DNA from: Sipunculus nudus
Lineage: Eukaryota; Annelida; Sipuncula; Golfingiida; Sipunculidae
Length of the DNA stretch: 64,000 bases
Reading direction: 5' to 3'
Assembly: GCA_026874595.1 (NCBI GenBank)
Contig: CM049312.1
Location: 78,529,429-78,593,428, forward strand
Below the pieces are notes generated by a model. It was given only the letters and a program-made list of their open reading frames with translations, had not been told where the DNA came from and did not search any database. This document shows positions 21,532-59,291 of this stretch, piece after piece. Positions within the stretch are counted from its first letter, which is position 1. The number at the start of each line of letters is the position of its first letter. The translations under genes were made by a program, and so were the position numbers.

Positions 21532-21705
21532 CAGGGGCGGATTCAGGATTAAGGAAAGGGGGATCAAATCCAGAGGACCAATAACAAAGCCTAAAAAGGC
21601 AACAAGTCCGGAAGGGGGGGGGGGGGGACAGGACACCAAAAAAAATGTTTTAAACCCTAAAAAAGGTTGCGGCGGCAACCCCCCCCCCTTTGGATCCGCT
21701 TCTCA
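21532..21705. mobile_element. MITE-like element with CAGGGGCGGAT termini
   Basis: The left end reads CAGGGGCGGATTCAGGATT. The right end, on the other strand, reads GAGAAGCGGATCCAAAGGGG, an imperfect inverted match centred on GCGGATNCA. The interior is short, with G/C homopolymers and no ORF. The termini resemble those at 39.0 and 57.7 kb. Confidence 0.45.
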
Positions 21706-21829
21706 CGGGCATAAAGCAAAACAGAACATACAACTTAAAAGCATGCATCACACATCGATATCATGATTAAAGGTGCATTAAATGTATCAATAGTCATATG
21801 CATTTCTCAAGCTATTTGTTCATTTTGAC

Positions 21830-35031: not shown

Positions 35032-35322
35032 CTAGTCCCTCTCCGAACGATACTTGTTCATGTATCGACCCATCATCAAAAAGGGATGAGCATTTTTACC
35101 ACTAGATGATCCCTGCTGGTCGAACGAGGTTCCCGCCATCGCGAAGTCACGTGGTCTGAGCAGTTCGTCGTTCTGTTTTGGCCTCCTGGGCTTGATTTTT
35201 GTGCAGTAGATGTAAATATAAATAATCCCAACAATGATGACGAGAACCACCACCACTGCTAACGTCAGAGCAAATATATCCTTAACCTCGATATCCATAT
35301 TCACTAAATTAATTTTCGTCAT
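35032..35322 (-). CDS. single-pass membrane micropeptide A (unidentified family)
   Basis: A single coding exon of 96 residues ending in TAG. An internal Met9 (MDIEVKD) aligns with the start of the paralogue at 59 kb, so the true protein may have 88 residues; both ATGs have A at -3. Layout from Met9: an acidic short N-terminus, a hydrophobic segment at about 8-32 (FALTLAVVVVLVIIVG, then IYIYIYC), a basic stop-transfer KIKPRRPK, a polar middle (NDELLRPRD, a DQQGSSSG linker) and a C-terminal PFLMMGRYMNKYR. The charge pattern predicts outside N-terminus and cytosolic C-terminus without a cleaved signal peptide. About 60% identical by eye to the 59-kb protein, with conservation concentrated in the membrane segment and the C-terminal motif, which argues for selection on protein. 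I do not recognise the family and assign no function. Confidence 0.8.
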   Translation of the reverse strand: MTKINLVNMDIEVKDIFALTLAVVVVLVIIVGIIYIYIYCTKIKPRRPKQNDELLRPRDFAMAGTSFDQQGSSSGKNAHPFLMMGRYMNKYRSERD

Positions 35323-38087
35323 TTGAATTTCAGTTCTAAGTTTTACGTAAGTTTTTTTTTTCTTTACAGAGTCCTCACGTGTGTTTTCTTTCTGGTGTCA
35401 CAAATGAGCAGTTCATTTTCACTACCAACTTATGTGTTCCGTTCGCTGTCGATATTTGTCACAGGTTTAAAATTAAAAAAAAATTAAATTTAAATATATC
35501 GCTCCTTTACTCAGTAAAGCTGCGTGTTTATCTGTACTGCAAAATGGTTATAAAATGCTCCGATGTTTCTTTGAAGTTTCCTCTGTTGACGTAAAGCTTG
35601 GAGCCTCTTTATTCTCGTATTCTTCGTATGATATCCATTTATTTGATATGCTGTTTCTTATAACACACTGGAAAAAAAAAGAACTTTAATCCAGGCTTCA
35701 CAACAACAAACCATTCATACGAATATCTCTCTGGGTATGTGTCTTATCTAATGAAACAAATGACTGGCATTTTCTTCACGATTATATTGTCATTTTAGTA
35801 TACGACCAATTTGCAGTAATGCACATTCCACGTGCTTTGCATATTTCCATCTGCTTTTTAGAAAATAACATAAATTGTTTTTATGTTGTCAGCAAATCAA
35901 ACTTTAAGTCGTTATCCCTTTTTTTAAATATACGATAAGCATATTTGCACCACACGAGCCACATCTGTTTGCGACGAAAGGCTCTAAGTCTTCGGGTTCG
36001 TTATATCGAAAGATTAATTCCCTTTTTATGATATTTCAAATATCAAATCGAAAGCCTTTCTTATCCATGCAGGGGAGGTTTCTGTCACTGTCTGAGGCAT
36101 GTACCTTGTAACAAAACCGGCAATGCTTGATCCCTTGACCCGAGTGCGAATGTTCGTGAAATGGTCTTTCAAAAGGTTATCTTTTTATGCTTTGACGTAA
36201 CTTCCTTGTTTCTTCTTACGATTCTTTTCAAGCTTAGACTTAATAAAATCTTCTCCACTTTCGGTTTTGTTTGTGTCAGCGAAGTCATTATATACGCGAA
36301 CATATCCGTAATTGTATATAAAACAGCTAGCAGTTGAAGTAGCATGTACCATCCCGTGCCAAGCCTCCCGTCTTTTTTGGTCAATGAGAATGCGCGGACA
36401 AGCAGTTTTCAGCAGGTTTTACAAGACTTTTACGTCTCCCCTAATCCTCGGCTCCAAGGCACTTGAGGTAAACAGTAGTCAGCATAAAGGGATTACAGGT
36501 TAATCAATTCTCCCGTGGCCCGTGCTGGTACCAGTCAATACTCCTCTAACTTTCAGGATGAATACTGTGAAGTCACGCTCCCCGTGTTTTATCTTGTAGG
36601 TTGTTAATTCATTACCTCCTAACAGCCCCGTGTTTCCAACCAACCTTTACGTCTTATTGTTTACCCAGGAAGATCCCCCAGTTGTTAATGGTTCAATGCT
36701 TGTACACTGATCATTCCTTTAAACCACATCGTTTAACACAAAATAAAACACACCTTACACCTAAATGATATTTTTTTTTCTGTTGGCTATGTATTCTTTT
36801 ATAGTAAATACATAATCCGTTTTGGTCGATTATGCAAACATGCAACCGATATATATATATTGAAACATCGCATTTATGACAACCAATGAAATCTCAATTA
36901 AGTGGTCGTCCAAGGGAAGTCTGATTGCAGCAGAGAAGAAAACAATAAGGACCGTGAAAAGTGGCCGTTATTTTCCCCTATTAGCGGGAGGGTCATGTGA
37001 GCGAGATGATTGTGTTAGCAAGATGGTCATTCAAAAGCGAACAATTTACAGACACGTTTTCATTAGGGTATTAAGGAATGTTTGGTGAAACGTACCATAT
37101 ATGGTCAAAAGTATCTACAAAGTGTAAGAATGCTGTACAATTCCATGTATAACAGAGCATATTATATATGTCATATTTCAGAAGCTTTAACATCATATGA
37201 TTTGCCTTATATTTTACTTTTTAGCAAAGCAAGGTGTTTTCTTCCATTTATATCGAGCGGAAGATCTCATTCGAGGCCCCGGCTTCATAGCTCGCTTCCA
37301 ATTGTTGATTAATATTGGAGGGCATGAATCCGGCAGCTTCGAAGCGGACACTCTGCCATTTATAGTTATTTTCAATTAGTGTATAAACAGAAAGTGATAA
37401 ATTTTGAAGAGACTGGGCGACTAGCTCGTTTATCATTTCACCAATTCGTCCAAATCTGCTGTTTTCTTTTAATGAGAGTGAATATATTTTTAATGACCAA
37501 ACAAATCCTTTATTGTTACTAATTACAATCCTGTCAGCCTCGCAGGAATTAATTACACGCGGCGGTGATCTATGATTGTGACATTGATAGAAACCCATCA
37601 GTAACCTTGAACATCAGACAACACGACACCGTTATAAACATAACACAACGTAATGTCACTTATTTCATAAATAAATAGTTTCCCTAAACATAAGAGTTTA
37701 ATTTATGCCCGGTGTAGAAACATATGTTTGTCTGATATGAAAAAAATAAGACGAGGGTCAAGTGAGATGATTAAACGACTCGGTAGGCATATTCATTCGA
37801 TTGGTAAGACTTTGTACACTACATTGATTTCTGCAATAAATCGACTCAAAATATCTATATTCCGAGAGATATATAATGACTTTCTTATGTGTGGACTGGC
37901 CTAGTCGGTATGCCGGTATTTTTCCGCAGTATGGAGCACCTACTACTAAATTGAAGGTTCTGCCAGCTGGCGGCAAATAATATAATTAATTCAGACTCGT
38001 CTCACTATCAGGAATGTACAAGACCAGACTGCTCTTATCTTTATCAGTCATTCCTAATTAGGTATATGGGAATACGTTTCATTATAC
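35323..38087. other. intergenic upstream of micropeptide A
   Basis: AT-rich, no repeats of note. Frames at 36169-36503 and 37082-37598 overlap on opposite strands and show no splice-site or poly(A) logic. Confidence 0.5.
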
Positions 38088-38887
38088 TGTTACGGAACCT
38101 AATATAAACAAATCGCGTATGCGTGATGAACACAAATTTTGTAATGGAGATTTAAAAAAAATCAGATTCTGTAACACTAGGCAGCGTGAAATGTCTAGGG
38201 GTATGAATAAAGAAGTCAGTGTTTTTTTTGTTAACAAATAACCATAATTTATTCTTAAAACAACCCTAACATTACAATACACTAAATCAATACAATTATA
38301 CAGTAAAACAGCGGTATAACAACAAATCAATACAATCACACAGTAAAATACACAAAGTCCACAGTACCTGGATACCACCATCGTCACAACGATAAGTTCT
38401 TTAAATATATACTCTCGGAGAATGACAGTCCAGTGTAAAGCTCTTGTAACAATCCAGAAAGTAAACTTAAGTCTAAATGCACGAAATCCAGGAGAAAGTC
38501 TGAAGAAAATCTATAATTGCCGCACTCTTCGGATAAGGTCCCAGAAACTGACACACACGCTTCTGCGTCCGCTGGAAATCTTCTCTGCTGCTCTCTCTCG
38601 GCTCTAAAACGCAGCCCCTTTATATACTCTTCACCCCAAGGCGAGAATTTTCCACTTCTCGAACAGTCTAAAAGATCTTACACAACACAGTAAACACGCT
38701 TTACAGGAATCATCTAGTAGAACATAGCTGTGTGTGTCTCTACATACCAGGGTCCACACGTGACTCACAACCAGGCGAGAAAGCCCAAGGCTTGCTTGAC
38801 AACGAGAGTTCAGCCAGTACGGATAATCTGCGAATTTAATAAACGGCCCGGCGAGGGTGTCCCAACACGAGTTACGCCCGTGTCACA
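38088..38887 (-). mobile_element. probable solo LTR of a retrotransposon
   Basis: Read on the minus strand, an 800-bp unit starts TGTGACACGGGCG and ends GGTTCCGTAACA, short imperfect inverted ends of the TG...CA type. Internally it has a TATA box (GAGTATATAAAGGGGC, plus 38617-38626) and, about 370 bases downstream, an AATAAA (plus 38248-38253) followed by T-rich sequence: promoter and polyadenylation elements in the order of a U3-R-U5 unit. No internal domain, primer binding site or coding remnant flanks it, so a solo LTR is the best reading. A clear target-site duplication was not seen. The 101-codon minus frame inside is a by-product. Confidence 0.6.
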
Positions 38888-39013
38888 CAATAAAAAGAGC
38901 ACCTGTAACAATAGATATATTGCTGGGAATATGGGAATCGCATTGGTCATAAATCTCCATGCCTTTATATATTATGAATAATTAAAAGTTAAACCGTCTG
39001 TCGCCTGAGAATT

Positions 39014-39335
39014 CAGGGGCATAGCCAGGATCGTCCAAATGGGGCCATACCCCCCCCCCCCCCCCCCTATCCAGAACTCCCCGTCCTCCAATAATTTCGT
39101 ATAGTCTAATGATAATTAATATTTTTAAAACAAAAACATGGAATTCCTGTGACTGGTATTCGTTGCTTATGACTTATTTCAATATAAAACATTGCAGATG
39201 CAGTACTTAATGCTTTGTTTATTGATAATTTTACATTTCATTAGCTTTGATCCTGCAAATATTATATGTTTTATTTAGGCCCATTGAATTTGTACAACTG
39301 ATATTTCTAACTGAAATTAAAACGTGCGAAGTATT

Positions 39336-39372
<37 letters not shown>

Positions 39373-39477
39373 TTAATATATATAACATACATATATTATA
39401 TATATATTCAATTTGTACAAGTGATATTTCTAATTGGAATTAAAACGTATGTATATAAATATAAATATAAATATAAA

Positions 39478-39552
<75 letters not shown>

Positions 39553-39588
39553 GCCCCCTCCCTTCCCACAATCCAGGCTACGCCCCTG
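39014..39588. mobile_element. MITE-like element with 18-bp terminal inverted repeats
   Basis: The left end CAGGGGCATAGCCAGGAT (39014-39031) and the right end read on the other strand, CAGGGGCGTAGCCTGGAT (39588-39571), match at 16 of 18 positions. The interior has a C run, an internal duplication of about 45 bases (about 39284-39328 and 39407-39451, TTTGTACAA-TGATATTTCTAA) and long AT tracts. No transposase. The CAGGG start suggests a hAT-type non-autonomous element (inference); flanking 8-mers do not match clearly. Confidence 0.7.
39340..39550. repeat. AT-dinucleotide tracts inside the MITE-like element
   Basis: (AT)n at 39340-39366 and 39481-39550, with ATAAAT units between. Three overlapping frames in this region are artefacts of these tracts. 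Confidence 0.95.
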
Positions 39589-40770
39589 GAGTTTGCCCTT
39601 TTCACAATTAAAGCACGATGTTATGTATATCTATGTTATTCATAATGACGATCATGACTTAATTCACGATTTGTTGACCCCCAAAATATGTAAAATATAC
39701 AGTTTAGGTAAAAAAATAAACCAGGAGGTCAATGGCGTAGTGCCCGTTCGGCTCCGCCGCAACAGGAAATTGAGCAATTTGCACTTGGAGCATGAAAAGT
39801 TTAATAACAGAAATGTTGTATCACTCTGCTGTTCTGAACTCTGAAGAAGGCTCCAAGCACATTCGGATTAAACATGCAGACTCAGTCAATAAAGGAGAAT
39901 AAGGGTTTTTTTTTTGTTGTTGTTATGGTAAAGGTTTGCATACATTTAATTAATGATTTTCAGATCACTGTGTAGTAGTTTAAAAGAACACACTGAACAC
40001 TATCAGGTAAATATAACAAAAACACATCGATACAAAAGATAAGAAGATTTTTTATATGAATTGTACAGGGAAGCCTCAGAGACGGACGGACAGACGGACG
40101 CCACATCATCAAGCTAATGGTCGGATGAACTAAAACTAAAAAATTAAGTGCTAATCATTCACAACTTAATAACGTCCCAAAGGCCAATAAAATTAATTAA
40201 ACCATTTACTGCAGTGCTGTTTGTTTACAGGAAATGTGAATTTAAACAGAGCCATATGACCGTTATACACATAGCTGGAACATGTCAGTTTCCAGTTGGC
40301 CAAGCGCAAAGGTGAAATTGATTAACATGCATTAACACTGGGACACTGCACTGGTCACGTGACCCATGCATGTCAGATGCGTGGGCCCTTACCAGAGCTA
40401 AGTTTATTGACAGGCTGACCTGACCCACAGATTATCCAGAGAGTTTTTCCTATAATCCCTTCGCGCGCTACCTGACGGTAGAACACACAAGTTGATTAAA
40501 GTGTAATGTTTTATAAAAGCTTCCTTCGGTTGTCACACAAACATCCCTACGTTCATTTGATAAAAGCAAGTTCACACAGTAGTGTGTTTTATTTTATTTT
40601 ATCAGGTTTGTTTTGCCTATTATATTATGGGGTTTTCGTTTAGTTTTTGATATTAGCGTTATGTTTCTGTTGCGGTTCGGGTATATTGTGTACTGTTTAC
40701 AATTCCTAAACATTTAATGTATCTGTTGTGTTTTAGGAATATCCTCACAACAGTGGACTTCGTTTATATA

Positions 40771-40919
40771 CAGTGAACCCTGTTTAATAATAGAAGGCCG
40801 CGTGTACATTAAGACAACCCTCTGGCGATCATTTGTTGGAACTAACCTTATAAGACCACCTGCGAATTAAGACCATTTTGGACAGTACCACTGGTGGTCC
40901 TAATACACAAGTTTCACTC
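40771..40919. mobile_element. short TA-flanked inverted-repeat element, copy 1
   Basis: 149 bp. The left end CAGTGAACCCTGT and the right end on the other strand, GAGTGAAACTTGT, match at 10 of 13, and TA dinucleotides flank both ends. The interior has ATAAGACCACC and AATTAAGACCATTTT words, shared in type with 47493-47655. A Tc1/mariner-type MITE is the likely class (inference from the TA flanks). Confidence 0.55.
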
Positions 40920-41599
40920 TATTTGCAGATAAACCGGTGCTGTGTAGCGGGAATTCACATCCCGAAAAGAGAGTTTTACTTCGCGGCAATTTATGAGATG
41001 GCAGGACAACATTATATTCATTGGCATTCATATAGTTGTAAAAGCTTGAGGCACGTCCTGCCTGAGACGAACAAAACTGAATTCCTAGAGGCTAAATGAG
41101 AAAATCCATTCAGTATAGTATTTATAAATCAAATTATGCTGTTTTTTCAACTGTAACGTTTAGAATATATTTATTTAGGAATTCTTTCTAAATATTCATT
41201 GAGCCTCTAAATCAATTCGGCGTTTCTTTAATTATTGATACTTGTCTTACCCCAGCTGTCGGTCATGTATAATCCTTGAGAAACCGTAAAGGATTCAGTT
41301 TGAATATCAATTATTGCCTTTCGATTCAATGATTTAGACTTTTTTATATATTTGTTGTTGGAGGTATCCATATTTTAAATACTAGCATAACCCAAAAAAA
41401 AATTGTACACCTTCAGATTTCCATTGCTGTTTTAAACTACGTGACAGGGCAGTATCACATGCTTCCCTCATGTGACATCCTGGTATTACCTGGCCCTGTG
41501 ACTACTGCACCTGCGGGCCCTGGGGGCGTTATAGTACCCATTACTTAGTCATACCACCGAGAAACCCCGTTACAAGTCATAAACCCGAAAGGCGGACTC

Positions 41600-41765
41600 G
41601 TTTGAGAGTGAAATATGGCCATTGGGCACGGGCAGAGCGCTCACCCAAAATGTCGCCGACTATGAAAATCTCACAGCCTCGGCTAAGATTCTAGCTCACG
41701 ATCTCCCTTGTTTGAGTCCTCGCCTCCACCCCTGGATTACGGAAGCCGTAGGTCACTATGATGCA
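41600..41765 (-). repeat. SINE fragment, same family as 63.3 kb
   Basis: The minus strand reads GGGAGATCGTGAGCTAGAAT, then TTAGCCGAGGCTGTGAGATT and a terminal GGGTGAGCGCTCTG. The 63.3-kb copy has GGGAGATCGTGAGTTTGAAT and CAGCCAAGG. A tRNA-like box B lies in the GTGAGC/TTNGAATC block. Confidence 0.6.
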
Positions 41766-42190
41766 GTCGAGTCCGTCCTCTCCGAGTCCGAATGGAAGTC
41801 CAGGCCTAAGCCAGTCGAGTCCAAGTGCGAGTCCTTGAGGTTCAAGTCCAAGTCCACCTCCTTCGTGTCCGAGTCTGTTTGAACACGAGTCCAAGTCGGA
41901 GTCCAAGTTCAAAATGTCTAAATTTGTATAAAGTACTTTAAAATGGAAATTTGAGAGATAGATGTGTATTTTCATTATGTTAGTTTACACATGTATTTTA
42001 CTTTAATATTGCATCACTCCCATTGTTACAATGAGTTTGGTTTTAAAGAGAGAGTTTTTTTTTCTACTAAACTCGAGACAGACTCCATCTGAAATCTCGA
42101 TCGAGTTCTTACTCCTGAGTCCGAGTATACGTCAGAGTACCTAAAAAGTGAACTGGAGTCCGGACTCTAATTCAAGCCCGGACTCATGTA
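41766..42190. repeat. GAGTCC word cluster, locus 2
   Basis: Many GAGTCC/AAGTCC/GTCCGAG words at 41766-41915 and again at 42070-42190, separated by a segment (GGAAATTTGAG...TGTGTATTTT) that also flanks the 55.03-kb cluster. The 86- and 94-codon frames across it are repeat products. Confidence 0.7.
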
Positions 42191-44259
42191 TTACATTATT
42201 GTTTTGATTCGATTCGATTCTCTGTTCATTCATTTTAAACAGTTGAAATATTATGCAGGGAAAGACTAGAACAAATGGTTTTTTACCGGGTTACGCTAGG
42301 ATGAACGTTATAATGTACCTTTATATATATATATGCATTTATGTGGACCAAATAATCATCAATTAATCTCCGCATGTATTACTGCGTTAAAATTTGATAT
42401 AGGATATAAGGACAAGTTCCTTACTAATTTAGAATCTTTACGTTGCCACAACATTGTTTATCCGTCCGCAGGTATCAAGAAAGTTTTTTTTTTGCAATTA
42501 TAATTGTTGTTTTGATTTTTATGAATCTGTTTATAACATGCTTTGATACAATATATCGGCCATTCAATACCCTCTATAACTAAAGATCTAGAACTAATCT
42601 GGTGCTTGATTTTACGTCATTACGTTCGTAAGAGCCATATCTCCATTCTGAAGAGATCACATATTTGTCTTTTGTCACCGGATATTAGATCATGCTGGGA
42701 AGACTTATTATAAAAATGACTTCTCTACACAAGCCAATGGGGGAACAATTTCCACATAAAAGAAAAAAAAACCCTTTGGGTGATCTCAAAGCTCTTACCG
42801 ACGATTCTGATTAGATAAATGCTTGTGCTTTAGGAATTCCAGCCTCAGGAAAGAGGCTACAACCAGTATTTAATGGACTTGATATATTCCATTATTGCAT
42901 AGCCATAAGATCTGTTTACCATGACAACAAAGTCTAATCACGCCAAAGGCCGAGTCTCGTCGCGTGACCGTTACAAGTCATAAACCCGAAAACCTTAATG
43001 TTAGACGCACTGGACAAACAAGTACACCCCCGGACGGCCTGGGATTAACGACTGGGCTTGGATATTGATCAGGATATGTCAGCGCGCCAACACTGATCGC
43101 TTTGAAGCTTCTGTTAATAGGCTGGTTCCCGACTCATTATGAGGACTTGTCTCGAACATCATTAACATCATCCGTACCAAGTCTTGTAAAATTGCTATTC
43201 TGTCGATTATAAGGAACAAGGCAGTAAAACGATAAACCAAAAACCGTATTTGACCTAATAAGCCTATCGGGCGTTAAACATTTATAAAACATGACGTTTC
43301 CGTTCTTTAAAGAGCATTACAAACAGTTGGAATCCAAAATTTGCCCGATTTTGTAAACACCTTAGTTGAATGATTGACTATAACAGTAATATCGCGCAAA
43401 ACCGTAACCAAACAAAGCTATTTTCGAATCATGTTTTTCTGTTCCTTATTTCACCAAGAATGATTGATATGTCTATTTATGACTGTAAGAAAAGGCTACT
43501 ACGGATTGCCGGTAGTGTGCAGTGTCAGGAATCACGAAATCATGTTGAGGTATATATACCAGGGAGGGACACTTAACTGGTCAAAAAAGGTACTCAAGTA
43601 ATAATTTATTTTTTTGGTGATAAATAGTATAGGGGTATAGGAAACATTTATATTATTATTAATTTTATTCAATTACTATTGAAGCGACCTATCTTATGTA
43701 CAAATTTAAGAGATTTGCTGCGGCTTTGAGATACAAGCCCGGACACACATATTCACATATGACATATATACATATACAAACATACGCACTGACGAACATA
43801 CAAGCAAACCGATAAACCCGTTTTCAGTGCCCCAATCCCCAAATAAACATTCAAAAAAGGGTAAAAAATGTATAATACAAGTATAATACGTATTATCTCT
43901 ATATGTCGTTTTAAACCCTCTCTAACACTAACCCATTCCTCAAAATGGCTGCAAGCTTACATCTGATGTTACGAAGCGCCGACTAACATGGGCAGACAGC
44001 CAGCATGCCGTGTGCACCAACAAGTCAACTGGCATCATCGTAAGTTACCTTAAGGCCGGGGCCAGTGGTCACCTTTAAGCTTGAAAGCCACATGTAGTCC
44101 ATGAAGCATTAAGTTGAATTATAGTAAACGTCACGGAAACTACATGTGTTGAACAAGTCTGCGGGAACCACTAAAACAACATACTCGATAAAGTAAAAAA
44201 AATCATTGATTCGAGCAATACTATTTATGCGCCTGTCAATGACGGGACGGATTATATTA
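42191..44259. other. intergenic, no gene supported
   Basis: AT-rich, without recognised repeats beyond short homopolymers. Confidence 0.5.
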
Positions 44260-44735
44260 TTCTCACCGCCCGTCCGTCCGTCCGTCCGTTAATTTTTAGT
44301 GTCGCCACGGTAACTTACCGGGAGTTTGATGGATTTTCACGAAACTCACCATAACTACTAATCAATAGATTATCTCGCCCAGTTTGGATTGTCGGCAAAA
44401 TCCACGTAAATTTTATGATGTCAGAGGTCACTAGGCTTCTTTGTGGTGTCGCCGCGATCACTTACGAGGAATATGATGTATTTTGATAAAACTCCAAAAA
44501 AAATATTATTAATGTAATATCTCGCCTAAGTTCGATTTCCGGCAATATCCTCGCATAAATAATTAGGTCAAAGGTCACCGCACTTTGGAGGCAAAAAATC
44601 CTATTAATTTTCATGAAACTCGTTTTACATATTTTCCAAAGAAGTTTCTCACCTCAATTCAATTCTCAGCAAAATACACGTATATTTAATGAGGTCACGG
44701 GTCACAAATTAGTTATGAACCATTTGCGGGGCCCT
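44260..44735. repeat. decayed ~130-bp satellite, locus 2
   Basis: Starts with four GTCC units and contains about 3.5 units with GTGTCGCC-CG-TAACTTACC, TTTCACGAAACTC, ATCTCGCC, GGCAAAATCCACG-like and GAGGTCA-GGTCAC, in the order seen at 1964-2445. Confidence 0.75.
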
Positions 44736-45540
44736 TGTTAAAAAATTTTCCCGGCTCTATAATATTCAAACAACAGGTCCCTAATGAATAGAACAACGTT
44801 GCTCGAGTTTGATGGACAACTGCTTTACAACACGTCTTCCTACGGTATAGGGGACTATTTCGCTATCTGACGTCTTTTGGCTGTTTTTGGATTTGTGAAT
44901 ATACCTATCGCTCCTCTTTTTATTGTTACAAAGAAAGTGATTCGATTCAGTTTTATAAGAGACATATAGGACCCTCTATCACCCCGCCAAGCCAAAATGT
45001 GAAACCTAAACTTACAATAGACATGCATGATACATTTACAAGGAAAGCTACCACACTAATGCCGTCCCCTTGCTAAGAAATAATCTGCTACAATAAGAAG
45101 CAATACCCTGCATCATTTTTGGTGTGTGTGTGTAATTTTATGGTTATGTAATATTTTGGTCAGTAGGAACCTCTCAGTGGGGAAAAATCTGTACATAAAC
45201 TTAATGACTTCCAAGGCAAAGTGGCTCTCTTGCCATCAGAGGGTTGCTACCAGCCTGAAACCAGGCTGTCTCAATATGCAGTCGAATGCGACAACTTTTA
45301 GGAGATATTTTGACAACTCTGGCCCTGTTGACAAATCTATGTTTTGAGTTTTATAAATGTCTTTAATCAAGAGATTTAGTTTCCTTTAACGTCAGCATCT
45401 GTTGGTCGCTCGATGTTGGGAAGATATATTTTACTAAGGGTTGCATGTATATCGTGTAATGTTCATGATCTTTTTATACCCAGAATTAATTGTTTATATT
45501 TAATGACAAGTAACACTGTGATTATGTTTCAAATAAGACG

Positions 45541-45543
<3 letters not shown>

Positions 45544-45580
<37 letters not shown>
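45544..45580. repeat. (AT)n microsatellite
   Basis: About 18 AT units. Confidence 0.95.
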
Positions 45581-45584
<4 letters not shown>

Positions 45585-47492: not shown

Positions 47493-47655
47493 CAGACGTT
47501 GCCTAATGACCACCTCTATTTAGCGACCACCTCAAAATAATAACCACCAGTCAACTGTTTTGCTCTTTATATAAGACCTCGCTTAGACGATCACCTTGTA
47601 AATGCGACCACTTTATCGGGGACCCATTGATTGTCGTAATATCGAGGTTTTACTG
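47493..47655. mobile_element. short TA-flanked element, copy 2
   Basis: 163 bp between TA dinucleotides. The right end on the other strand reads CAGTAAAACCTCGAT; the left end, CAGACGTTGCCTAAT, is more diverged. The interior repeats GCGACCACCT/TGACCACCTC words like those of the 40.77-kb element. Confidence 0.45.
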
Positions 47656-50600
47656 TATAATTTTTATTTGAACTAAATTATTTCTAAGAGGCGTCATGTC
47701 ATATCGCAGTTTTCGGAAATGTTCATAGTGTAAATCAATTTTCTCAGTGTTTCTTTCCGCATTTGCTTCTATGAGCTATTTTTTCTCTGATACATTTTAT
47801 TTTTTTAATTTTTGTAAAGGATCAAGTATCCAGTCTTTATGTAATATTCCTGAAATAAAAACAAGTTCCTTCTTCTGGGTGCTATAATTAACGTTGCATC
47901 GGACTCGATGCTTCACCCGCACATACTGAATGTTTCTCTCCGATGCAGATAGAGGGGGCCACTGAAACACAAGTTAATTCTGTTTCTATGATCTTATTCG
48001 AAGAGATCTACTGTATCTATAACATCAAGATAAAATAAAATTTTTACTGTTTGTATTTTAACAAAATGAATAAATACAAATTTTTCATAGTTAGTTGGAA
48101 ATGAAGTGGATAGAAAGTCCCTGGGATTTTAAAGGCAGAGCGTTTTAGTGGACCTCCCCATATAAAAATATCAATGAATATCAATGGTATGAATATCGAT
48201 GCCTATCATATTATAGCATCTTAAATGAACATTTTGGGAAACCCTATATAAAGTAACAATGAATTGTTCCAAATCTCCTGAAGTTATGGAAAAAACTTGT
48301 TTCTACATAACAATGGAAATATCTTCCGGTTCTGCCTGTGGTAAGTATGGTTGGGTTTTAATTTACATATCAACCGAGTGATTAAAATAGTTCATTGAAA
48401 TCTTATAATATTATCAGTTAAAATTATATTGTCACCATGGGGGCCTTTCTTATGTCTTCCGGTCCTGACTTTCCGGCCCTAGCCGTGTGTTTTTCCCAAA
48501 GTTGCTTTTCAGTTTAGACAATATTGAGCTACACATGGATTGCATTTGTTATGCATTACAGTTGTGACCAGAATGGCTAATACTTTAAATATAATCCTTC
48601 CTGAATTTATGTTAAAAAGAGAAGTGGCCTTATCTACCATCAGACAAGGCAAAAAAGAAGATAGTCGATATCAGGGTATATTTTCAGGAAATTTTAGAAA
48701 TGCACATTCTTCTAATTAAGCGTTCCCCGTCATTATAAAATGAACCCCATAGAACCCCATTACATGAAGTTGTTAACGGAACAGAAATAACAGTTATCGG
48801 AGACGGAGATTTGTTTTTGTTTAAAGCTGATTAATTTCCAGTTAATCTCAAGTCGGTATAAATAATATGAAATATTATACATATGCATGGATCGTGAATG
48901 GAAATATAGAAAACTATAAATCATTATTACAGAAATATAACAATATTTGCAAACTCATACCAGAGCCTATTATGAGGGAAAACATTAATTTGATGAAATT
49001 TAATTATTATTGACAACTGAAATAAAAATTGATATTCAATCTGTGACGACAAACAAACTTTTGGAACTGCACATTTCCATCTATAACTGCACAAACAGGG
49101 ATCACCTGCACGTTTAAATATATCCTGGATGACGTCAGATATGCCACGTGGCGTGGAGGACATAACAACAGACAGGTGGTGTCGGTCATTTTGTATATTA
49201 CTCCGTCCTATCAGGTGATCGCCCATGCAGAGTATAAGCAAATGACATGAAGTATAATCCCAACCGAAAGTCGTGACGAGGTCTATCTAATCAGAGTAAC
49301 GACATCGTTGTAATGGAGTCCAGCTGTCTAGTTTAATCTCATAACCATTGACTGATGGACTTTTCCTATTTGCAGGACATTATGGGTGTATTTGCATTAC
49401 CACTGAAGCAAGCACACACGGCCATTGTGTCAAGCTTAATCATAAATACATCAGATGGACGGGACTGGACACTCATTTGATTAGACTTAGCGTGATTTCT
49501 GATGTTTAACTGGACATGGCTGGAGAGGCAGAACCTTAGGAGGTACAGTTAACTTGTACAGGAAGTGATACTGTCAGATCACGTGGTCACTGGCGTGACG
49601 TAAAAAGTAGGTGACCGATTGGTAAACCATTACAAATAAGAATCAAGGGTTGGTTTACATAGGGCAAAGTAATTTCCATGTCTTTTTATTTATATCCTGT
49701 TTGTATTGCTATACATACGTTGGTGTCTCTTTCAAGCACATGCTAACTTTATCAAGTAGTGAAGTTTTTTAAGCCAACAACATTTTAGGAAAGTATATCT
49801 ATTAAAACGGTTAAGTATAATTCACAAAATAGTTCAACATACTGGGCATTCCACATTCCTCGAAAACTGTGAAACGTGATTATTGCCGGAACTGTACAAG
49901 CATGATATTTTTTTTACGAGTGTGAACAAGGGAAAAAAACATAACTTTTTTTATATCTACATTTTTGCTGTCTTTATAAGGATTTAATGCTAATTTAACT
50001 CTGATCTGTGGTAAACAAAATGTTTAAGGTGTTTGACTAAGGTGCACCAATAAACCAAATATGTATTAACCTTCTTTTTTTCGACGGATTATCAGTGGAG
50101 CCGCCATTGCATGATGATTTCAATTTGTGCGATCCCTTATATATTCTCCCATCAAATAATACCTTCGCAGTGGTGCCTGGTTTCAAATTTAAGGCTAAGA
50201 TCAGTTTGATAAGGAATTCCTTTTAAGTAACTATTGAATCATCCTTAACTGATCCCCGGCTGTGATTAATTAACCAGCAGTCCATATTCTGCAGCGGAAT
50301 TTGTGAATCCCTTAGTACAGAGAAATAAGACAAATATATGAAAGTGTGCCAGAGTAACGTGTGCATTGCTTGTTTCATTTGACTTATATTTTAACAGACT
50401 TTCGGTGGTGTTGTAAACCTTTACAACACATTCTGTATATTCATATTTCTCAAGCGACATGAAACCCTACAATAAAATCAATATTTAGCTTGGAAACAAG
50501 AATTTAGAGTAGGATTTTCTCTAATCCGTTTCTTTCCCTCCTGTCCACCTGTTTTTGCTAGGAAATGTTTCATTAGTAACACTGCGCTGGAGAAAATGAT

Positions 50601-50664
50601 AATGAAAGGAAAAAAATTAAGATCTAATTTTTTACAAGGAAACTACACACGTACCTGTCACAGA

Positions 50665-51035
50665 ATTTAAGAAACAGAATTATTTTAAAACATGATAAAT
50701 TACTTTACATTTAATCAGATATACGTCCCTTATATGGCGGTCAAGTTCATTGTTCCCATGCAAAAAAAAGCCACAAATTAGAGCTTCTGATTGGATGATA
50801 TTATGTATACACTTAGAAAAATATAACCAACCAAAACAAAGATGGTTACATATGCAGGGACACACCTGATCATTCAGATCATTGAAAAGAGTAAAGAAAA
50901 TTTGTAAACATAAACTGGAGCATAATTTTAAAATTTGGGCTTCCGTATTAGGTTGTCACCTCTATGTGCAGCTTCTTAGAAAATTTCTGGGAAATAAAGT
51001 CACCGTGGATATTCTCTATTCTAAACGAAATATTT
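50665..51035 (+). repeat. dispersed repeat, copy 2 (partner at 6.0 kb)
   Basis: Diverged copy of 6005-6360 in the same orientation, followed by a T homopolymer of about 19 bases at 51058-51076. A third, poorer match may exist near 57.0-57.13 kb. Confidence 0.6.
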
Positions 51036-51076
51036 GCTATTTGATCTTATGCGCTTGTTTTTTTTTTTTTTTTTTT

Positions 51077-54000
51077 CACTAATAGTGTTCATAGTAAATT
51101 AACTTGGTTATTACCTTATAACAGTAAAACCCTTGACGGCGGTAGATTTGAGTCAAAAGGGAAAAAGTTCAGAAAGGAGCTCTAAACAATATGACGTCCA
51201 TGCCGCTGTATAGGCCGCAGATATTAATAGCAAACGGTTTCCATCCGAAATCGATCGGAGGTTCGCTTTGACTTAATAGAAAAAAAAGAGATATCTTGGT
51301 CGATCTGCAACGTCTGTGCTGATAAAATCCTTGTCTAATAAAACTTCTACTGTAATTTTAGAAATTGCGCGGATAATATCTTCCCAGTTACTTTGTTGAT
51401 GGTTTATCAGTCGCTCGGAAGAGTTACTTTTCGCGATGGTCACAAACGACGTTTTACCTTCTTTCTTGACAATAGATCATTTAAGCGACGATACGCCTGC
51501 GTCACTTCGCCTAAAGCATGGATTAATTGCTAGAAAGTTCATCTCAACCAGGCATCGCTTGTGACATTAATTATATTTCATTACATAACAAATCACCATT
51601 GGGGGCACAATTTGTCAACCGCAATCATTAATTTTGCGGATAAAACATAAATCGTGTTGCTTGTAACAGTGCTCGTCAAACTAACAGCCGCGCGCGAGAA
51701 AAAAGGGGAATGAAGGGTTATTTAGGGGCATCCTATTAACGCCCGTTGTTGCATTTCTTGCATGAGTTCAGGTGAGTTGGCCTTGACACATGACCATTAT
51801 GACGTCACACATATTTTAATGCGGGTTGAATTTATTAAACTCCATCCTACTGCGGGAAGTGTATGCTTTCTAAATCAGGGACTAGAACACAAGCCCCTCT
51901 TATTCCTTGTCTTGACTCGCACATGGAACCATTAAAACTTACAAAGCGGGTGAACTGCAGTTAGTAAGTTCAAGTGCCATGCAGTTTTGCTCGGAAACTT
52001 GTTTATTTAGTTAAAATGAACTATAATAGTGTAATAATGAACAAACAATGATTATGAACCTTTACTTAAATTAAAGACACATAATTTTAACATATGTTAT
52101 ATATTTAGCATATTTTATATGTATATGTACATATAGATATGTAATATACTAAGTGATATTTGGTGGCATGATAGTCAATTCGGCCGGGACCTTATCACAA
52201 CATTCTTTCGGTATTCATTTTTAGGCTGTCCATAAAAGAAAAAAAATCCGCTTGTCCATGAATGGGTATGGAGCTCAGATAGTCTTTTATTTAGGTTAAA
52301 AGTCACTTTTCAGGTCAGCGTCTCAGTCTATCAACTCGCAGGTATTTTAGTACTAAATGATACACTTTTCAATAACGATAACATTTTCTGCAATTCTTAT
52401 TGTAGGACATCATTTTGAAGGTCTCTTTCTGGTCTAAGTAACTCATTCTCCCACTTGCCCGGTAAATTGACTGAATATAAAATTTTCATGAAAAAAAGCT
52501 GGGGCGATCCTGAGCCTTGCCTTGCGTGAGAGGTAACGGATGAGTATGTTAAAGAATTGGACGGAACTGCAATTACATGGTTGTAAGGAGATACTGACGC
52601 TGATCGCTTGCGTGATGCAGACCTCGGGTCTGTATTTTGTATAATCAATATACAATATAGATCCTCTTCACTGTTAGTCCCTTAAATTTGTACTTTGGAG
52701 AAAAATTGTAAATACAATAAAAATAAAGGGAATGAAATATTACCTTTGTGAGACTAAGGTCTAAAAAATAAATGAAATGTCATTTAAATCTTCTTATTGT
52801 ATACCAATAATAACTTTTTGCTCTTTACATTTGAATCAATGTGTCAAATAAACTGACTGATATTTCAGTCAATTTATATCATGTCTGAAAATTTTGCAGT
52901 CATTTTTTAAATTGCCTGAGTGAATCCGGCACTTTTTATATTGACGGAACATTTCAGGAATTTTACAATTTGACTGATTTTACACATTGACATTAATCAC
53001 AAAATAATTTCATCATGCAGTATTAGGAAAAGAATAAGGACTTGTACAAGTTATGACGAATAACCCATTTCCCACGTTCATTTGTGTTAAATCTAAACAG
53101 AAATTAAGATATATATATATAATTAACAGGAGTGTATGAAATATGCGCAATATCGCTAAGTAAATCATCATTATAATTAGTCATTCAAGAATATTGTCTT
53201 TAAAATACTGAAGACAGAAGAGCCGTATTATCTTTTTATGATAATACAGTCTCTCTCTGTCCCAGCCATTACATGCGTCGCTTTAGTTTATGTTTAGGCG
53301 TCCGGTAAATTGCAGCTAGTTTTTTTCTTTCTTGACAGAGATGATAAAGCTTGCTAGGAAACGAATCTCATCTGGAGGCTAAGAAAAGCGTCTCTCGGTG
53401 TCTTGTGGCAGTTAATTGGATAAATTCCTGTTTGCTTGCTATGGTATCCCGGCATCGTTTTTGTATGTTCTGTTTACTTGTCCTTAACGGCTTCAGCCAA
53501 GCGTAACGCCACTATGACAAGATCCTTTTAGATAAATTAGCTCTGAATCGATTGCCCTGAGGGGAGTGACGCTGACCGCCGTTCCCTTTGGCTCATTTAC
53601 TTTTACAGCAGCTTCCTAGAGAATGCAGCCGGAACGAACCCTGAAAAGGCGACGAGCAGTATCCCAACCTCACTCCCACCGCTGCGACACAAGTCTGTAT
53701 TATCTGCGGGAGTAAACAATATATGAGCTTACGGCGCTGGATACGACGCGCGGCTCTAGTGGTACATCTTTTCAACTTTGACTTTTGCTGAAGTCTTCTT
53801 CCATTGTTTTAATCTGTTTAAATTAGTCCTTGGAGTCTTCACGGAGCAGTATTTGAGGTATACACTGAATGCTGTGTTGTTCGAAATGTTTCAAAATGCA
53901 GAACTGGGAACCGTTAAGCATTGAGTTAGGTTGCGATTTATATCCAGTGTCCTTTGGAGTATGAAGGATTATTCTTTTCATCACCGGACACGTCGGATTT

Positions 54001-54234
54001 AACAGCGGCCGAGCAGAAGAAATGCTGGAATCATGCGCTGGGTACATGATTGATTGACAGACATAACAAAGATTAACAAGCCTTGAAAAATCCCCTAGCG
54101 TGCCAGGGCTGTATGTTTACCCGACCTGCTCTCATAAATTCATGATAAAGCCAAGGAACATCCTAGACCCCGGCCCAGAGCCCAATTGTTACAATTGAAT
54201 TCTTTGATCTTGTTTATGATATACGCTGCTCCAG
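51077..54234. other. intergenic, no gene supported
   Basis: The minus frame at 52397-52648 contains ELLRPERD, superficially like the micropeptide motif ELLRPRD, but has no membrane segment. The stretch at 53.5-54.05 kb is GC-richer, without a supported gene. Confidence 0.45.
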
Positions 54235-54315
54235 GTCTGGGAGGATGGTATTCCGGACCTGACCAGACTGACTGTCGGACCAGGAGCCAAAACTGTCTCT
54301 CAATGATATAAGGAG
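54235..54315 (+). other. possible non-coding exon
   Basis: Bounded by an acceptor-like CTGCTCCAG and a strong donor, AGGAG followed by GTGAGTATG; 81 bases. All three frames contain a stop, so if real it is untranslated. It could be a distal leader exon of the plus-strand micropeptide gene 4.6 kb downstream, but that is only inference. Confidence 0.2.
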
Positions 54316-55027
54316 GTGAGTATGAAGAGAAAAGTTTACCACCGAGCAGAAAACTTTAATCTGGTTGTAGTTTTGCCACTTAGTTATAAGAAAGTATCAA
54401 CTACTAGTAGCATGTAAAAAGTTATTATGAAATCATAACTGAACGAATCTGAGATTGTTCATTACATGGTCTTATTAACTTTAAACAGAGGATTACTAAT
54501 CATACCGCGCTTTAGTTAGTATTATGAGTCAATGTTCGTATTGGCCATTAATATACTGTGCACATAAATTTGTCGTATTAACACCTTTTTTTAATTTTGT
54601 ACCAATCCTTTGGAAAGGGGAACACCTATAGTTGTTTTCCTCATTAGTATCGTTCAGTAGTAGCAAACACTAAAACGAAATATTTTACAGGGTCCTCCAT
54701 CAACCTCCTAGGTTCCTTGTATTTCCCTTTACAAATATGCCACAATTTCTTATACTTTCCGGCATTTAGGCTCTCATCTCCTATAGTTTGATTCGTATCA
54801 AGAAAGTCCTGAAGTAACCCATGCAGAAAACAGACTTATGTCTTAAAAAGTAATACATTTAGAAAAAAACACAAACAGTTCTAGATGTGGCTTATGGTAT
54901 TCTAGTGTGGCTACAAAATACATTCCGTTTGGTCACCACGGATTTTACATAATTGTGTATATAGATGATCAACATCTAGTGGTCGCTAAAATAAACTGAT
55001 TATTTTTAAAAGTGTCAATACAAGTGA

Positions 55028-55180
55028 CGTAGTCGAGTCCTCAGGATCCGAGTATGAGTGCAAGTCCAAGTACTGGAGCATCGAGTCCCGAGCCCGAGTC
55101 CGCGTTCAATACAAAACTTCTTCAAATGAAACTGTAAATGGAAATTTGAGTTTATCATGTGTATTTTATGTATTACGTTT
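55028..55180. repeat. GAGTCC word cluster, locus 3, with flank
   Basis: GTCGAGTCC, GGATCCGAGTATGAGTGC, CAAGTCCAAG, CGAGTCCCGAGCCCGAGTCC, then GTAAATGGAAATTTGAG and TGTGTATTTTATG. The last two blocks also flank locus 2. Confidence 0.7.
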
Positions 55181-57653
55181 AGCTCCCGATTCCGAACTAA
55201 AGATTCGTACATCCATTTACAATTTACTATGAAATATTATATCTAATCCCGGTTTAGAATGAACTTGTACTGGAAACATAATATCTTATTTTCTATAACC
55301 TTTTAATAAATTTTAATACATTTGAAATGTGATTAAGTATATAAATTTGAAATGTGTGATACATACACTACAAAGGTATATGCATATATACATGTATATA
55401 TATATATAGTATGTGTGTGTGCACAAGTCCCCCTCCCACACACACACACCTTCCCCACCCACCCTGGAAGGAATATTGACGCCACTGATTTCTCAGAACA
55501 TTTCTTCATTTCATATATGCCCAGAGAAAGCCAGAAAACGCATAAATTCTACAAATAAGATATTAAAGCGAGAAAATAAAAGATGTACTGATTTTTTTAA
55601 ACATTCGCATTTAATTAAAGGGAACCCGTTTTATGTTAGCAAAATATCTCCAAACCTCATTGAATCGGAATAGTTCTGAAATTCTAGACAAGGCGTTCGT
55701 GTTACATCGCAGAATTATTCGTTTGTAGGTACCATTTTTGAAAGATTTATACGTACTAACAAAACCATGGCAGGTCTTTTAAAATAAATCTTACGTTACA
55801 TTGCTCTTTGCAAAAACAGTCTGCAAAACTCGGTTGTAGATTATCAACTTATTTCGAGAAATACAATGTGTGGTTTGCACTGTGACAGAATTGTAAGTTG
55901 ACGTATGGCTACTGGCTAAGGGAAATGGTTTACGGTTTAATTTAACGAGTTCTCCAGCAAAAGACGGTTTTTGCCTTTAAAAGGCACTGGTAAGGAAATA
56001 CTTGATCAAAAGCAGCGCACCCCGCCCGTAGCTGCGTGGGAAGTCTTAAAGGAAACTGTCTGTCTATCGGGAGTCCCCCCAGTCCTCGTTAAGGAGACTG
56101 ATATCTCATCCACAAGATGGCAGGCGAACTGCTTGGGGAAAGTAGTTCCTCATCAGTTGGCCTCTGGGTGACAGTCTCGAGGAAAGAGGACTCTCACTTT
56201 TATTAGTCCCGGCGTCCAGCTTAAATGAAACGATGCCTTATCAGCGAAAATCATGATCTGACATCTAATGGGAAGAGAAGTCTCAGGCGTGAATATCAAA
56301 GATTGAAGTAAATCCTGTTAGAAATTTAAAACTCATGCTAGAATGACCATGCACACAACAGACGGTCATGTATAATACGTTTCCCTTAGCTGATTACTTG
56401 GTTGGTTGATTTGTGTGTTAGCAAGTTTATGAACGGATTTTGATGACATTTTGTGAGGGTAAATTTTAGGGTTAATTTAAATCACCGTAATATGTCTTCA
56501 GTTCAAGGATTTTTGTTCATTTAGAGATAGATGGGCTCTTTATCCTTGGCCATTTTGGTTATAAGTTGATCTTTGTTCTGGAGCTCACTTGTGTACACAG
56601 AGAAGACAGATAGAAACAATATTATGATCCTGGTGGAGGTGTTTTTGTATGCTCAGACCCCATTTCTAATTATATATAAAACAGTAAATGTCACATTGAA
56701 TTCCATAAATATTTCCTGCACCGACGGAAACTGTGTAAAATGACCCTTTTTTGGGTATACAGGATCCTTTTGTCAGAAAAATCCGGTTCATTTGGTGTAT
56801 TTGTAATCTTTTCAAAAGAATTCACTTGACAACTTTTCAATGAATTAATATTTAATTCCACACAAAAACATCAATCCTATTGGTAATATATAAATTTCAT
56901 TTACATTTGATTTACACATACTGAATAATGGCTTGTATCCGAAATTTCACGCCCAGAATCCAGATATTGGTAACATGATCAGTAGTAATCAATGAAAAGT
57001 AAGGAATAAATATGAAATCTAAATTGCTTTACTGTCTGTTATACAGATGAAATGCAGTATTTCCCTATGGTCAAGTTCAATGTTTGTAAATGCATACATA
57101 CAGCTCAGTTTAGAGAAACTCTTAATCAAACTCATTGGAGTAGTCCGAAGAGCTATTAAAAAAAATTAACGCAAATATTTCCGAAGTAACATCCAAAGAC
57201 AAAAGTCTTTTGCATATTCATCTGGAATTTTGACTGATTATTACCCCGTTCTGTTTGAAAACGTTTTGAATGCGAATTAAGCGTCCACACGGCAATCCAA
57301 AGCGTTTTCAAACCATTTTGGCCAAAGATCAAGCGCAGGAAGTGGTTTTAAACCGTTTTGAATGCGAACCGTTTAATCCACTTTGCTCAAGAGCCGTGTG
57401 AACGATCTAGAACGGTTTGAACCTAGTTTTTAGTTACCCGCTAAATTGTTTACGGCTTTTTCCTCCAAGGAAAGGCTATCAGTTACACCCCTATTCGCTT
57501 TGGCCTTATGCCCATTGTGAACTCACAACACAGGTTATAACTGATTTGGTCAAACCGCTTTACCCGAGTCGTTTTGAAGACTGTTTTGTGTGTAAGGTGT
57601 ATAATGACCTCGTGTGTGACCGCTCATGCTGCAAGTCGAGCTGCTCCAGCTGC
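55181..57653. other. intergenic, no gene supported
   Basis: Short AT and CA tracts near 55390-55450. The stretch at 55.9-56.2 kb has an open frame (55971-56171) of balanced composition, but no splice or poly(A) support was found. Confidence 0.45.
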
Positions 57654-57939
57654 GGATTTAGGGGGCGCAGGGAAACCCTCTTCCTTATTCCTTACCCCCC
57701 CCCCCCCCTTCTCAAATCTTGTATCCTCCCAAGTGGACAGTAAAGGGCTGCCTTGATCCTGGAGTCGTAGGTGATCGTAAAAGCAGATCCAGGGGAGGTC
57801 CAGGAGGTCCGCCCCCCCCCCTCCTTTTTTTCAGCCACCGCAACTACTTTTCCGGAACTGGAGACCTTTTTGTAGGATTAGTCATTACTTCTCCTGGGGG
57901 GGGGGCTCTTTTCCTAAATCCTGGATACGCCCCTAAATC
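57654..57939. mobile_element. MITE-like element with GATTTAGGGGCG termini
   Basis: Left end GATTTAGGGGGCGCAGGGA; right end on the other strand, GATTTAGGGGCGTATCCAGG. Imperfect inverted ends 286 bp apart, with several C/G homopolymers and GATCC-AGG words inside. The termini resemble the elements at 39.0 and 21.5 kb. The three overlapping plus frames here are not genes. Confidence 0.5.
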
Positions 57940-58680
57940 GTACAGGGTTTTGTGACTAGGCCTGCACGAAAGCCAGCACGTTTGACTGTATTCGTACGAT
58001 CATCTGATTAGTCAAACGTTGTGTTTCGACAGTCCTACAACTGTTAAAAGACCCATAATTTGACGCTAGTTTGGGTCGCTGGTTACAGAAGCATACTGTT
58101 GCCTGTGGCCATATAAGACATTCGTAAGACTGTTTTCAGATAGTCTGCCACCGATATAATACAACTTGCGAGTATCCACATCTATCTACGACCAAACCAA
58201 TCGTGCGGAGGGAGGACTGCAGGTCTAATTTAGTCGTAACCTCTCGAATCCTTGCTTTTACCTATATTTTTAAACCAGGGTGATAACAATGCGCCGCATA
58301 ATCGATGATTTGGATCAAAGCCAATCAATAATTAATACTCGAATCGGGTCTGTTAGTGCTTTTTTAGCCCTGTGAAATGTTATGTATCATGTAAGTTTTT
58401 ACGAAGCGTGTGTCATACATGGCAATCGCAAAGCAAATTGACTTGCATTGCAGCTATAGGGGTGATGCAAGTTTATTTGAACGAACAGTCAGAACAAAGG
58501 AATATACTTAACCTATGAGACAATAAACATTTAATGCCAACTGTTGCATTTGCATGTCAAGCAAAGAAAATAATCCTTTAACCAATATAAGATGTAACCG
58601 CAGAAATGGCTAAGAAGAAATATTATTTTGCTTGTCTAATGCCTACGGATATATTATAATGTACTTCTTAACATGAAATG
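57940..58680. other. intergenic, probable upstream region of micropeptide B
   Basis: AT-rich, no repeats. The transcription start of the micropeptide gene probably lies here or within the next 90 bases, but no TATA box is convincing. Confidence 0.35.
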
Positions 58681-58769
58681 GGAGGAAGCGTTTAGATGAA
58701 ATACGTTTGGGACAGAGTATCATGAAATTCATAGAAACTGAAAAATTTAATGTAAAATCTAAGCAAAAG

Positions 58770-58796
58770 GTAAGTCACTCAGTATCTAATGTATCA

Positions 58797-58834
<38 letters not shown>

Positions 58835-58894
58835 CAGCAGATTTAATTCGAGTGTATTATCAAAATATTTAATATCATTTGGTTTTATTTTCAG
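58770..58894 (+). other. 125-bp intron in the 5' UTR of micropeptide B
   Basis: Donor AAAAG followed by GTAAGTCAC at 58770, and acceptor GGTTTTATTTTCAG ending at 58894, both near consensus. It contains a (TA)n tract of about 15 units (58802-58831). Splicing joins a short upstream ATG frame (from about 58721, about 24 codons) that ends before the main start. Confidence 0.55.
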
Positions 58895-59018
58895 AATATT
58901 AAACGCAGTTTGCTCAGGTGATGGAGCGGATGCTCAAGAAATAGAGGCGTAATGCAAGTGAAAAGGTACGCACCCGTTGACCAAATATGTCAATCGCTTG
59001 AGAGGAAGTGACGTCACA

Positions 59019-59291
59019 ATGGAATTTGCAATAAAGGATTTATTTGCCCTGACGCTGGCGGTGGTATTTGGTCTTGTCGTAATTGTTGGTTTGATTTATA
59101 TCTATATATACTGTACGAAAATACGTGTTAAACGACCGAAAAATGATGAGGAGCTTGGTCGGTCACGTGACTATAATACAGGAGCGGGATTTGCTGGAGA
59201 TCAGCAAGCACAGAATGGGAATAAAAATGCGTTACCCTTCCTGATGATGAGCAGGTACATGAATAAGCATCGAACTGACAGACAACAGTAA
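59019..59291 (+). CDS. single-pass membrane micropeptide B (unidentified family)
   Basis: A single coding exon from the ATG at 59019 (context CACAATGG, A at -3) to TAA; 90 residues. The frame is open 14 codons further up, but without an ATG. Layout: MEFAIKD, hydrophobic segment at about 8-32 (FALTLAVVFGLVVIVG, then IYIYIYC), basic TKIRVKRPK, polar NDEELGRSRD, DQQ, and C-terminal PFLMMSRYMNKHR. Homologous along its length to micropeptide A on the opposite strand 24 kb away. Predicted outside N-terminus and cytosolic tail. AATAAA signals at 59397 and 59426 give a 3' UTR of about 110-140 bases. A leader intron with strong splice sites precedes it. No known family recognised; no function assigned. 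Confidence 0.82.
   Translation: MEFAIKDLFALTLAVVFGLVVIVGLIYIYIYCTKIRVKRPKNDEELGRSRDYNTGAGFAGDQQAQNGNKNALPFLMMSRYMNKHRTDRQQ

Follow-up and report, generated by a model that had tools for sequence, protein, structure and literature searches.

Two short open reading frames (ORFs) lie some 24 kb apart on opposite strands of a chromosome of the sipunculan worm Sipunculus nudus, and their similarity raises the question of whether they are an isolated pair of related genes or part of something larger. The window analyzed here, i.e., the whole stretch of 64,000 nucleotides in which they were noticed, is C7:78529429-78593428 (contig CM049312.1, chromosome C7 below), and the genome searched is the corresponding 1.43-Gb assembly of 153 contigs. 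A preliminary description of the window proposed that the two ORFs encode paralogous single-pass membrane micropeptides. Sequence evidence places them in an old and so far unnamed family of small proteins predicted to span the membrane once. Both ORFs are present where the preliminary description had placed them and translate as it described; their features, in window positions and with the two members named A1 and A2, are as follows.

35032..35298, minus strand: coding sequence of A1, 88 residues, read as a single coding exon, stop TAG.
35203..35277, minus strand: predicted A1 membrane helix, residues 8-32 (Kyte-Doolittle mean 3.22 for residues 8-28; the limits 8-32 are our judgement).
35188..35244, minus strand: A1 family core L19-x4-G24-x-I26-Y27-x3-Y31-x3-I35-K36-P37, from family alignments and a pattern match.
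35038..35085, minus strand: A1 tail motif PFLMMGRYMNKYRSER, common only to the cluster at 78.56-78.73 Mb.
59019..59291, plus strand: coding sequence of A2, 90 residues, read as a single coding exon, stop TAA.
59040..59114, plus strand: predicted A2 membrane helix, residues 8-32 (best-scoring segment residues 8-28, Kyte-Doolittle mean 2.85).
59073..59129, plus strand: A2 family core L19-x4-G24-x-I26-Y27-x3-Y31-x3-I35-R36-V37, from family alignments and a pattern match.
59235..59282, plus strand: A2 tail motif PFLMMSRYMNKHRTDR.
58880..58894, plus strand: candidate 3' splice site of an intron in the 5' untranslated region (5'-UTR) upstream of A2, by consensus match only; the exon would start 124 bases before the ATG.

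BLASTP aligned A1 with A2 over 88 residues with one gap, giving 54 identities and 69 positives, close to the approximately 52 of 88 identities previously counted by eye; the two are sisters in the family tree (support 86/88). Agreement among the 88 aligned codons was 58, 72, and 36 at positions 1, 2, and 3, respectively, and the same codon was used for 28 of the 54 identical residues. The untranslated flanks had been said not to align, and no similarity between the two copies was indeed found over about 1.5 kb on either side. The start of the minus-strand gene had been placed at 35322, but the true start is probably the second ATG, at 35298, because the homology between A1 and A2 begins there and its context (G at +4 and A at -3, as in most family members) fits the family.

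Protein searches of the genome used the first window protein and then A3, D3, B, D1, F1, E, and F2 as queries. The first of these alone matched seven places, all on C7, and the searches together yielded at least 17 family members, every one of them on that chromosome; the counts are lower bounds, the genome search scoring the best candidates only. What had been called a paralogous pair is two of five copies within a 166-kb cluster, and two of the 17 in the genome, the other twelve being distributed across six further sites.

C7 78.564 (minus), 78.588 (plus), 78.604 (plus), 78.694 (minus), and 78.730 (minus) Mb: cluster A, five members.
C7 64.884 Mb, plus strand: member B.
C7 23.994 (plus), 23.999 (plus), 24.002 (plus), and 24.007 (minus) Mb: four C members.
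C7 24.795, 24.799, 24.814, and 24.817 Mb, all minus strand: four D members.
C7 22.164 Mb, minus strand: member E.
C7 33.034 Mb, plus strand: member F1.
C7 72.814 Mb, minus strand: member F2.

The members are 67-108 residues long, and each is read from one uninterrupted ORF. Every match obtained with F1, E, and F2 as queries (6/6, 11/11, and 6/6, respectively) was the query itself or an already listed member, and no additional copy was detected at E <0.5 in the window plus 56 kb of fetched neighboring sequence. Places outside C7 appeared only at E 0.07-0.86, on chromosomes C15, C17, C9, C5, C1, C6, C4, and C2, and none of these eight loci contains an ORF with the family core; on C15, C6, and C9 the top-scoring ORFs are repeats read as YIYIYI, and the one on C15 reaches 24.4 bits on the family profile. 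A weak match to D3 at 9.36 Mb (G000:C7:9362419-9362577, E 0.83) may be a further distant member or may be chance.

C7 makes up 5.9 per cent of the assembly. If the seven sites, which are at least 0.78 Mb apart, were placed independently, an assumption to which duplicates do not conform, all of the remaining six would fall on the same chromosome as the first with a chance of about 4e-8. The pattern suggests, on a plain reading, an old tandem array that was scattered by rearrangements within C7, and confinement to a single chromosome makes the age of the family testable via synteny.

Because membrane segments resemble one another by composition, the reality of the wider family was judged against composition-preserving shuffles, which were made separately inside the N-terminus, the helix, and the tail, and each profile was scored against members outside it. 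The A plus B profile gave 20.8-38.4 bits with the eleven C, D, E, and F members (best shuffle 10.8-17.1), and the C plus D plus E profile 28.6-43.1 bits with the eight A, B, and F members (best shuffle 14.6-23.7). In none of the 19 cross-group tests was the real profile score reached by any of 500 shuffles, which rules out chance likeness of membrane segments. A microsatellite origin of the IYIYIY string is likewise ruled out for the family, as paralogues have IYAYIY, VYVLLY, or IYALLY there; repeat-derived IYIYIY does account for several weak matches elsewhere in the genome. Upstream parts of members, compared in the same orientation, gave no match indicating a shared promoter or UTR element: the matches listed are either overlaps of the neighboring loci C2/C3 and D3/D4 or short pieces, pairing upstream with downstream, inverted, or within one locus, that resemble dispersed repeats.

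Codon-model fits under MG and GY, respectively, gave dN/dS ratios (omega) of 0.081 and 0.024 in the five members of cluster A; the set of eight C, D, and E members had 0.228 and 0.212, and a set of 16 members had 0.108 and 0.038. The truncated C2 was excluded from the latter two sets. Fixing omega at 1 cost about 96 log-likelihood (lnL) units in cluster A under MG (-1321.6 vs -1417.7) or 110 under GY, where kappa was also fixed, and 62 or 68 units in the C, D, and E set. Synonymous sites are saturated, and the lower bound of omega is thus poorly fixed (in cluster A, values of 0.02, 0.05, and 0.1 lie within less than 1 lnL unit of one another); values near 1, which the preliminary description had named as evidence that would count against its proposal, are excluded. 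With omega far below 1 in all three sets, purifying selection acts on the protein, and the earlier view that it is the protein that has been kept is borne out.

The start context also supports translation of the family ORFs: G at +4 and a purine at -3 each occur at 15 of the 17 starts, vs frequencies of 0.198 and 0.537, respectively, among 1027 flanking ATGs, the +4 excess partly reflecting second residues such as E and A. Furthermore, 16 of the 17 ORFs are open across the whole protein despite saturated synonymous divergence. The one that is not, C2 (G000:C7:23999515-23999757), has an in-frame TAG after 67 residues, just ahead of the aromatic tail motif, and its match to relatives continues beyond the TAG. 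This single shortened copy is what could be cited for the notion that the members lack function, being copies in decay or ORFs that are open by chance. The omega values refute that notion for the family as a whole, and both the 16 fully open frames and the start context argue against it; we consider it scarcely credible.

Each member has exactly one hydrophobic segment (best 21-residue Kyte-Doolittle mean 2.35-3.22; highest elsewhere, 0.07), and lysine and arginine residues number 0-2 before the helix and 3-6 after it in 17/17 (1 and 5 in A1, in which a second hydrophobic segment is absent). The single-pass layout originally proposed for the window pair is supported and is predicted for all members. 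From the positive-inside rule, the tail is predicted to be cytosolic and the N-terminus to lie outside or in the lumen. The N-terminus comprises 5-7 residues in 15 members, 37 in F1, and 41 in F2, and the longer N-terminal parts of F1 and F2 contain one sequon each.

The family core, L-x4-G-x-[IV]-Y-x3-[YF]-x3-[IM], is exact in 16/17 members, B having A for L, and is usually followed by R-P and basic residues (R at +12 and P at +13, each in 13/17). An alignment anchored on G-x-[IV]-Y, whose G, [IV], and Y columns are full by construction, has L at -5 in 16/17 and [LI] at +6, [YF] at +7, and [IM] at +11 in 17/17; in a MAFFT alignment of the 17 made without an anchor, G and Y are invariant and L and Y(+7) are present in at least 90 per cent. 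On a helix, G0, Y3, Y7, and I/M11 fall within 80 degrees of one another, at the cytosolic end. Small residues (A or G) are common at core positions -10, -7, -6, and 0, as might be expected if the helices self-associated and the tails clustered as a scaffold or small pore. However, all 17 lack charged residues between core positions -15 and +7, and conservation peaks at the inner end of the helix instead of running its full length; we regard self-association as a very unlikely explanation.

Beyond the helix, conservation is uneven. Mean pairwise identity in cluster A is 0.685 for the N-terminus plus helix, 0.443 for the basic patch, 0.35 for the linker, and 0.609 for the C-terminal 16 residues; the tail motif thus comes close to the N-terminus plus helix in conservation and is judged to be constrained on its own. 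The C-terminal PFLMM-RYM motif, which had been taken to typify these proteins, is kept in the window's cluster but is not a mark of the whole family: PFLMM-RYM-K-RSER tails are found in that cluster only, and what characterizes the family is the membrane core. The tails of most C and D members have W-[LIM]-W or LLW (those of C4 and the truncated C2 do not), and the last three residues of D2, D4, and E, T-E-[FCM], form a PDZ class I pattern (3/17 vs 0.5 expected from shuffles).

Two conserved blocks with a loose linker between them, the second block being exchanged between branches, are the basis for our preferred but tentative reading, which we rate a little short of an even bet, that these proteins are non-catalytic membrane adaptors or regulatory subunits with a common membrane dock and branch-specific tails. 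The N-terminus would face the outside or the lumen and the tail the cytosol; the G/Y/Y/I stripe (0, +3, +7, and +11, on one helix side) would pack against a membrane-protein partner in the inner bilayer half, and the basic patch would keep the chain at the membrane surface. The loose linker would then present a short C-terminal motif that differs by branch: in cluster A it is PFLMM-RYM-K-RSER, in most copies near 24 Mb W-[LIM]-W or LLW, and in three members a PDZ-like end. The overall scheme would be one shared membrane dock combined with paralogue-specific cytosolic recruitment.

Several observations count against this scheme. The three PDZ-like ends sit on related genes and hence are not independent, and LIR (LC3-interacting region), YxxPhi, dileucine, PY, and B56 patterns occur in the tails at or below shuffled expectation. 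R-x-R, which resembles an endoplasmic reticulum (ER) retention signal, is present in 12/17 tails vs 8.2 expected, and could mean either residence in the ER or a subunit in which assembly hides the signal. The stop in C2 means either that the tail is dispensable or that this copy is in decay. Because helical periodicity over the whole segment fell short of significance (p 0.10, 0.14, and 0.40, depending on which of three segments was chosen), the one-sided face is claimed for the C-terminal half of the helix alone. A fuller version of the adaptor reading, in which a previously undescribed animal family with one ancient transmembrane dock, copied and dispersed along one chromosome and bearing branch-specific cytosolic tails, couples the same membrane partner to different cytosolic machinery, is conceivable but rather doubtful.

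The preliminary description knew of no named family with the terminal motif, and none was matched in the libraries searched: no curated cut-off was passed, and no clear E-value was obtained, in Pfam (all 17 members, the window proteins, and subgroups), PDB chains, or PHROGs and NCBIfam (the two window proteins). Among the best 25 of the 34 Pfam families listed for the 17 members, no match was better than E 0.003 (Myc_target_1, in a single member); the listed matches mutually disagree and are below cut-offs wherever cut-offs are given, and the other nine families match one member each, at E >=0.14 going by list order. The two window proteins gave one NCBIfam match, at 16.9 bits vs a cut-off of 80, and no PHROGs match above cut-off or with a clear E-value. 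Searches of viral contigs with the five-member alignment (220 stretches) and of GTDB genome contigs (73 stretches) confirmed none, and say little, these collections being ill-suited to an animal gene. No description of the family was found in the literature, and four family peptide strings occur in no paper searched, most subscription papers lying outside that search.

PDB chains likewise gave no clear named-family match by sequence. The best profile match there, at E 0.0036, was to the ACE/ACE2-collectrin membrane segment, with which the family shares an iwli..G...G.....Gi membrane start and an ir plus basic end; Pfam Collectrin matches 3/17 members, at best with E 0.26. Unlike those proteins, the family lacks the ectodomain, and the match is gapped and covers the membrane segment only. 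Weak membrane-segment matches of this kind are common, integrin alpha-V being next at E 0.14, and the likeness is treated as a lead only.

The surroundings of the two window genes were also inspected. The window has 48 stop-to-stop ORFs of at least 90 residues, read by eye as were the neighboring fetched ORFs; Pfam was applied to four of them, which are exons of two ankyrin-plus-SOCS-box genes. The two genes are ASB-like and in tandem on the plus strand, with mutually similar exons (window 10810-13175 and 18785-20595). The window contains no Rfam match at the gathering cut-off and no tRNA detected by ARAGORN. Short glycine- and proline-rich ORFs of similar make-up occur at window 21458-21766 and 57662-57955 and at 2872-3267 of one fetched stretch (L067), and look like pieces of a dispersed repeat. 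Elsewhere in the assembly, bacterial-looking contigs carry ten full-length haem-copper oxidase genes (G000:C60, C61, C62, C66, C72, C74, C75, C89 (twice), and C123), two of which, on C60 and C123, were read. The C60 protein has at best 59 per cent identity among the best 80 of 589 GTDB matches and may come from a little-known cobiont; that of C123 resembles a cbb3-type subunit.

Three kinds of known small membrane protein invite comparison. The auxiliary peptides of the KCNE and regulin type are small and single-pass, with a short one-exon ORF and a basic juxtamembrane stretch, and the family has all of these. Its members could act in the same manner, with the helix as the part that modulates a partner ion channel or pump. 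The one-exon ORF with one helix would fit this, as would candidate 5'-UTR splice acceptors at most 500 bases from the start in 11/17 members (by consensus only) and the two longer N-terminal parts with their sequons. Unlike KCNE, however, the family does not have ISK_Channel among those best 25 of 34 Pfam families, and no channel-specific feature was found; an auxiliary subunit of this type is quite unlikely.

Closest in layout is stannin/hemotin (Pfam PF09049, SNN_transmemb), which is 88 residues long and single-pass, with an N-terminal helix and PFL in its tail; we take PDB entry 1zza to be the stannin sequence, PFL included. The family agrees with this layout in length, helix, and charge order, and resembles stannin in size and in how the parts follow one another (N-terminal helix, then basic patch, linker, and a C-terminal segment with PFL). 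It might be imagined as a set of endosomal peptides in which the C-terminal segment, lying along the cytosolic face of the membrane, titrates a cytosolic adaptor such as 14-3-3. In the A1, A2, and A4 tails the hydrophobic moment peaks at the PFLMM segment (0.47-0.56), in keeping with such a segment, but in A3 and A5 the peak overlaps the motif only partly. R-x-x-[ST] occurs in 12/17 tails vs 9.8 expected. Membership by sequence was rejected: stannin scores 1.5 bits on the family profile, a value reached by 265/1000 shuffles, and 1zza, although present in the PDB set, was matched by none of three family profiles with the E limit at 10. SNN_transmemb matched nothing in this genome, its control likewise giving nothing over the cut-off. 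Stannin also differs in having no family core, and here there are 17 copies in one genome. We consider a stannin-like role unlikely. As described in PMC4807881, hemotin/stannin, a small peptide with an N-terminal helix, a linker, and a C-terminal cytosolic segment, binds 14-3-3zeta and acts in endosomal maturation.

Purriato (Prto), as presented in PMC10036370, is a protostome family of single-pass proteins from small ORFs, Mollusca included, with a conserved C-terminal stretch beyond the helix; the same source gives it a C-terminal LIR motif and an N-terminal docking site for PP2A. The family is likewise small and single-pass with a conserved C-terminal stretch beyond the helix. Unlike Prto, it has the LIR core in only 6/17 tails vs 5.7 expected by shuffling, and in neither A1 nor A2. 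Purriato, compared here by its description only, remains the most serious possible relative. Small single-pass proteins are easily overlooked by annotation, and the core signature of this family is clear enough to search for in other genomes. Hemotin, stannin, and purriato, proteins of the same small single-pass kind, are described as regulators of basic cell processes (PMC4807881, PMC10036370).

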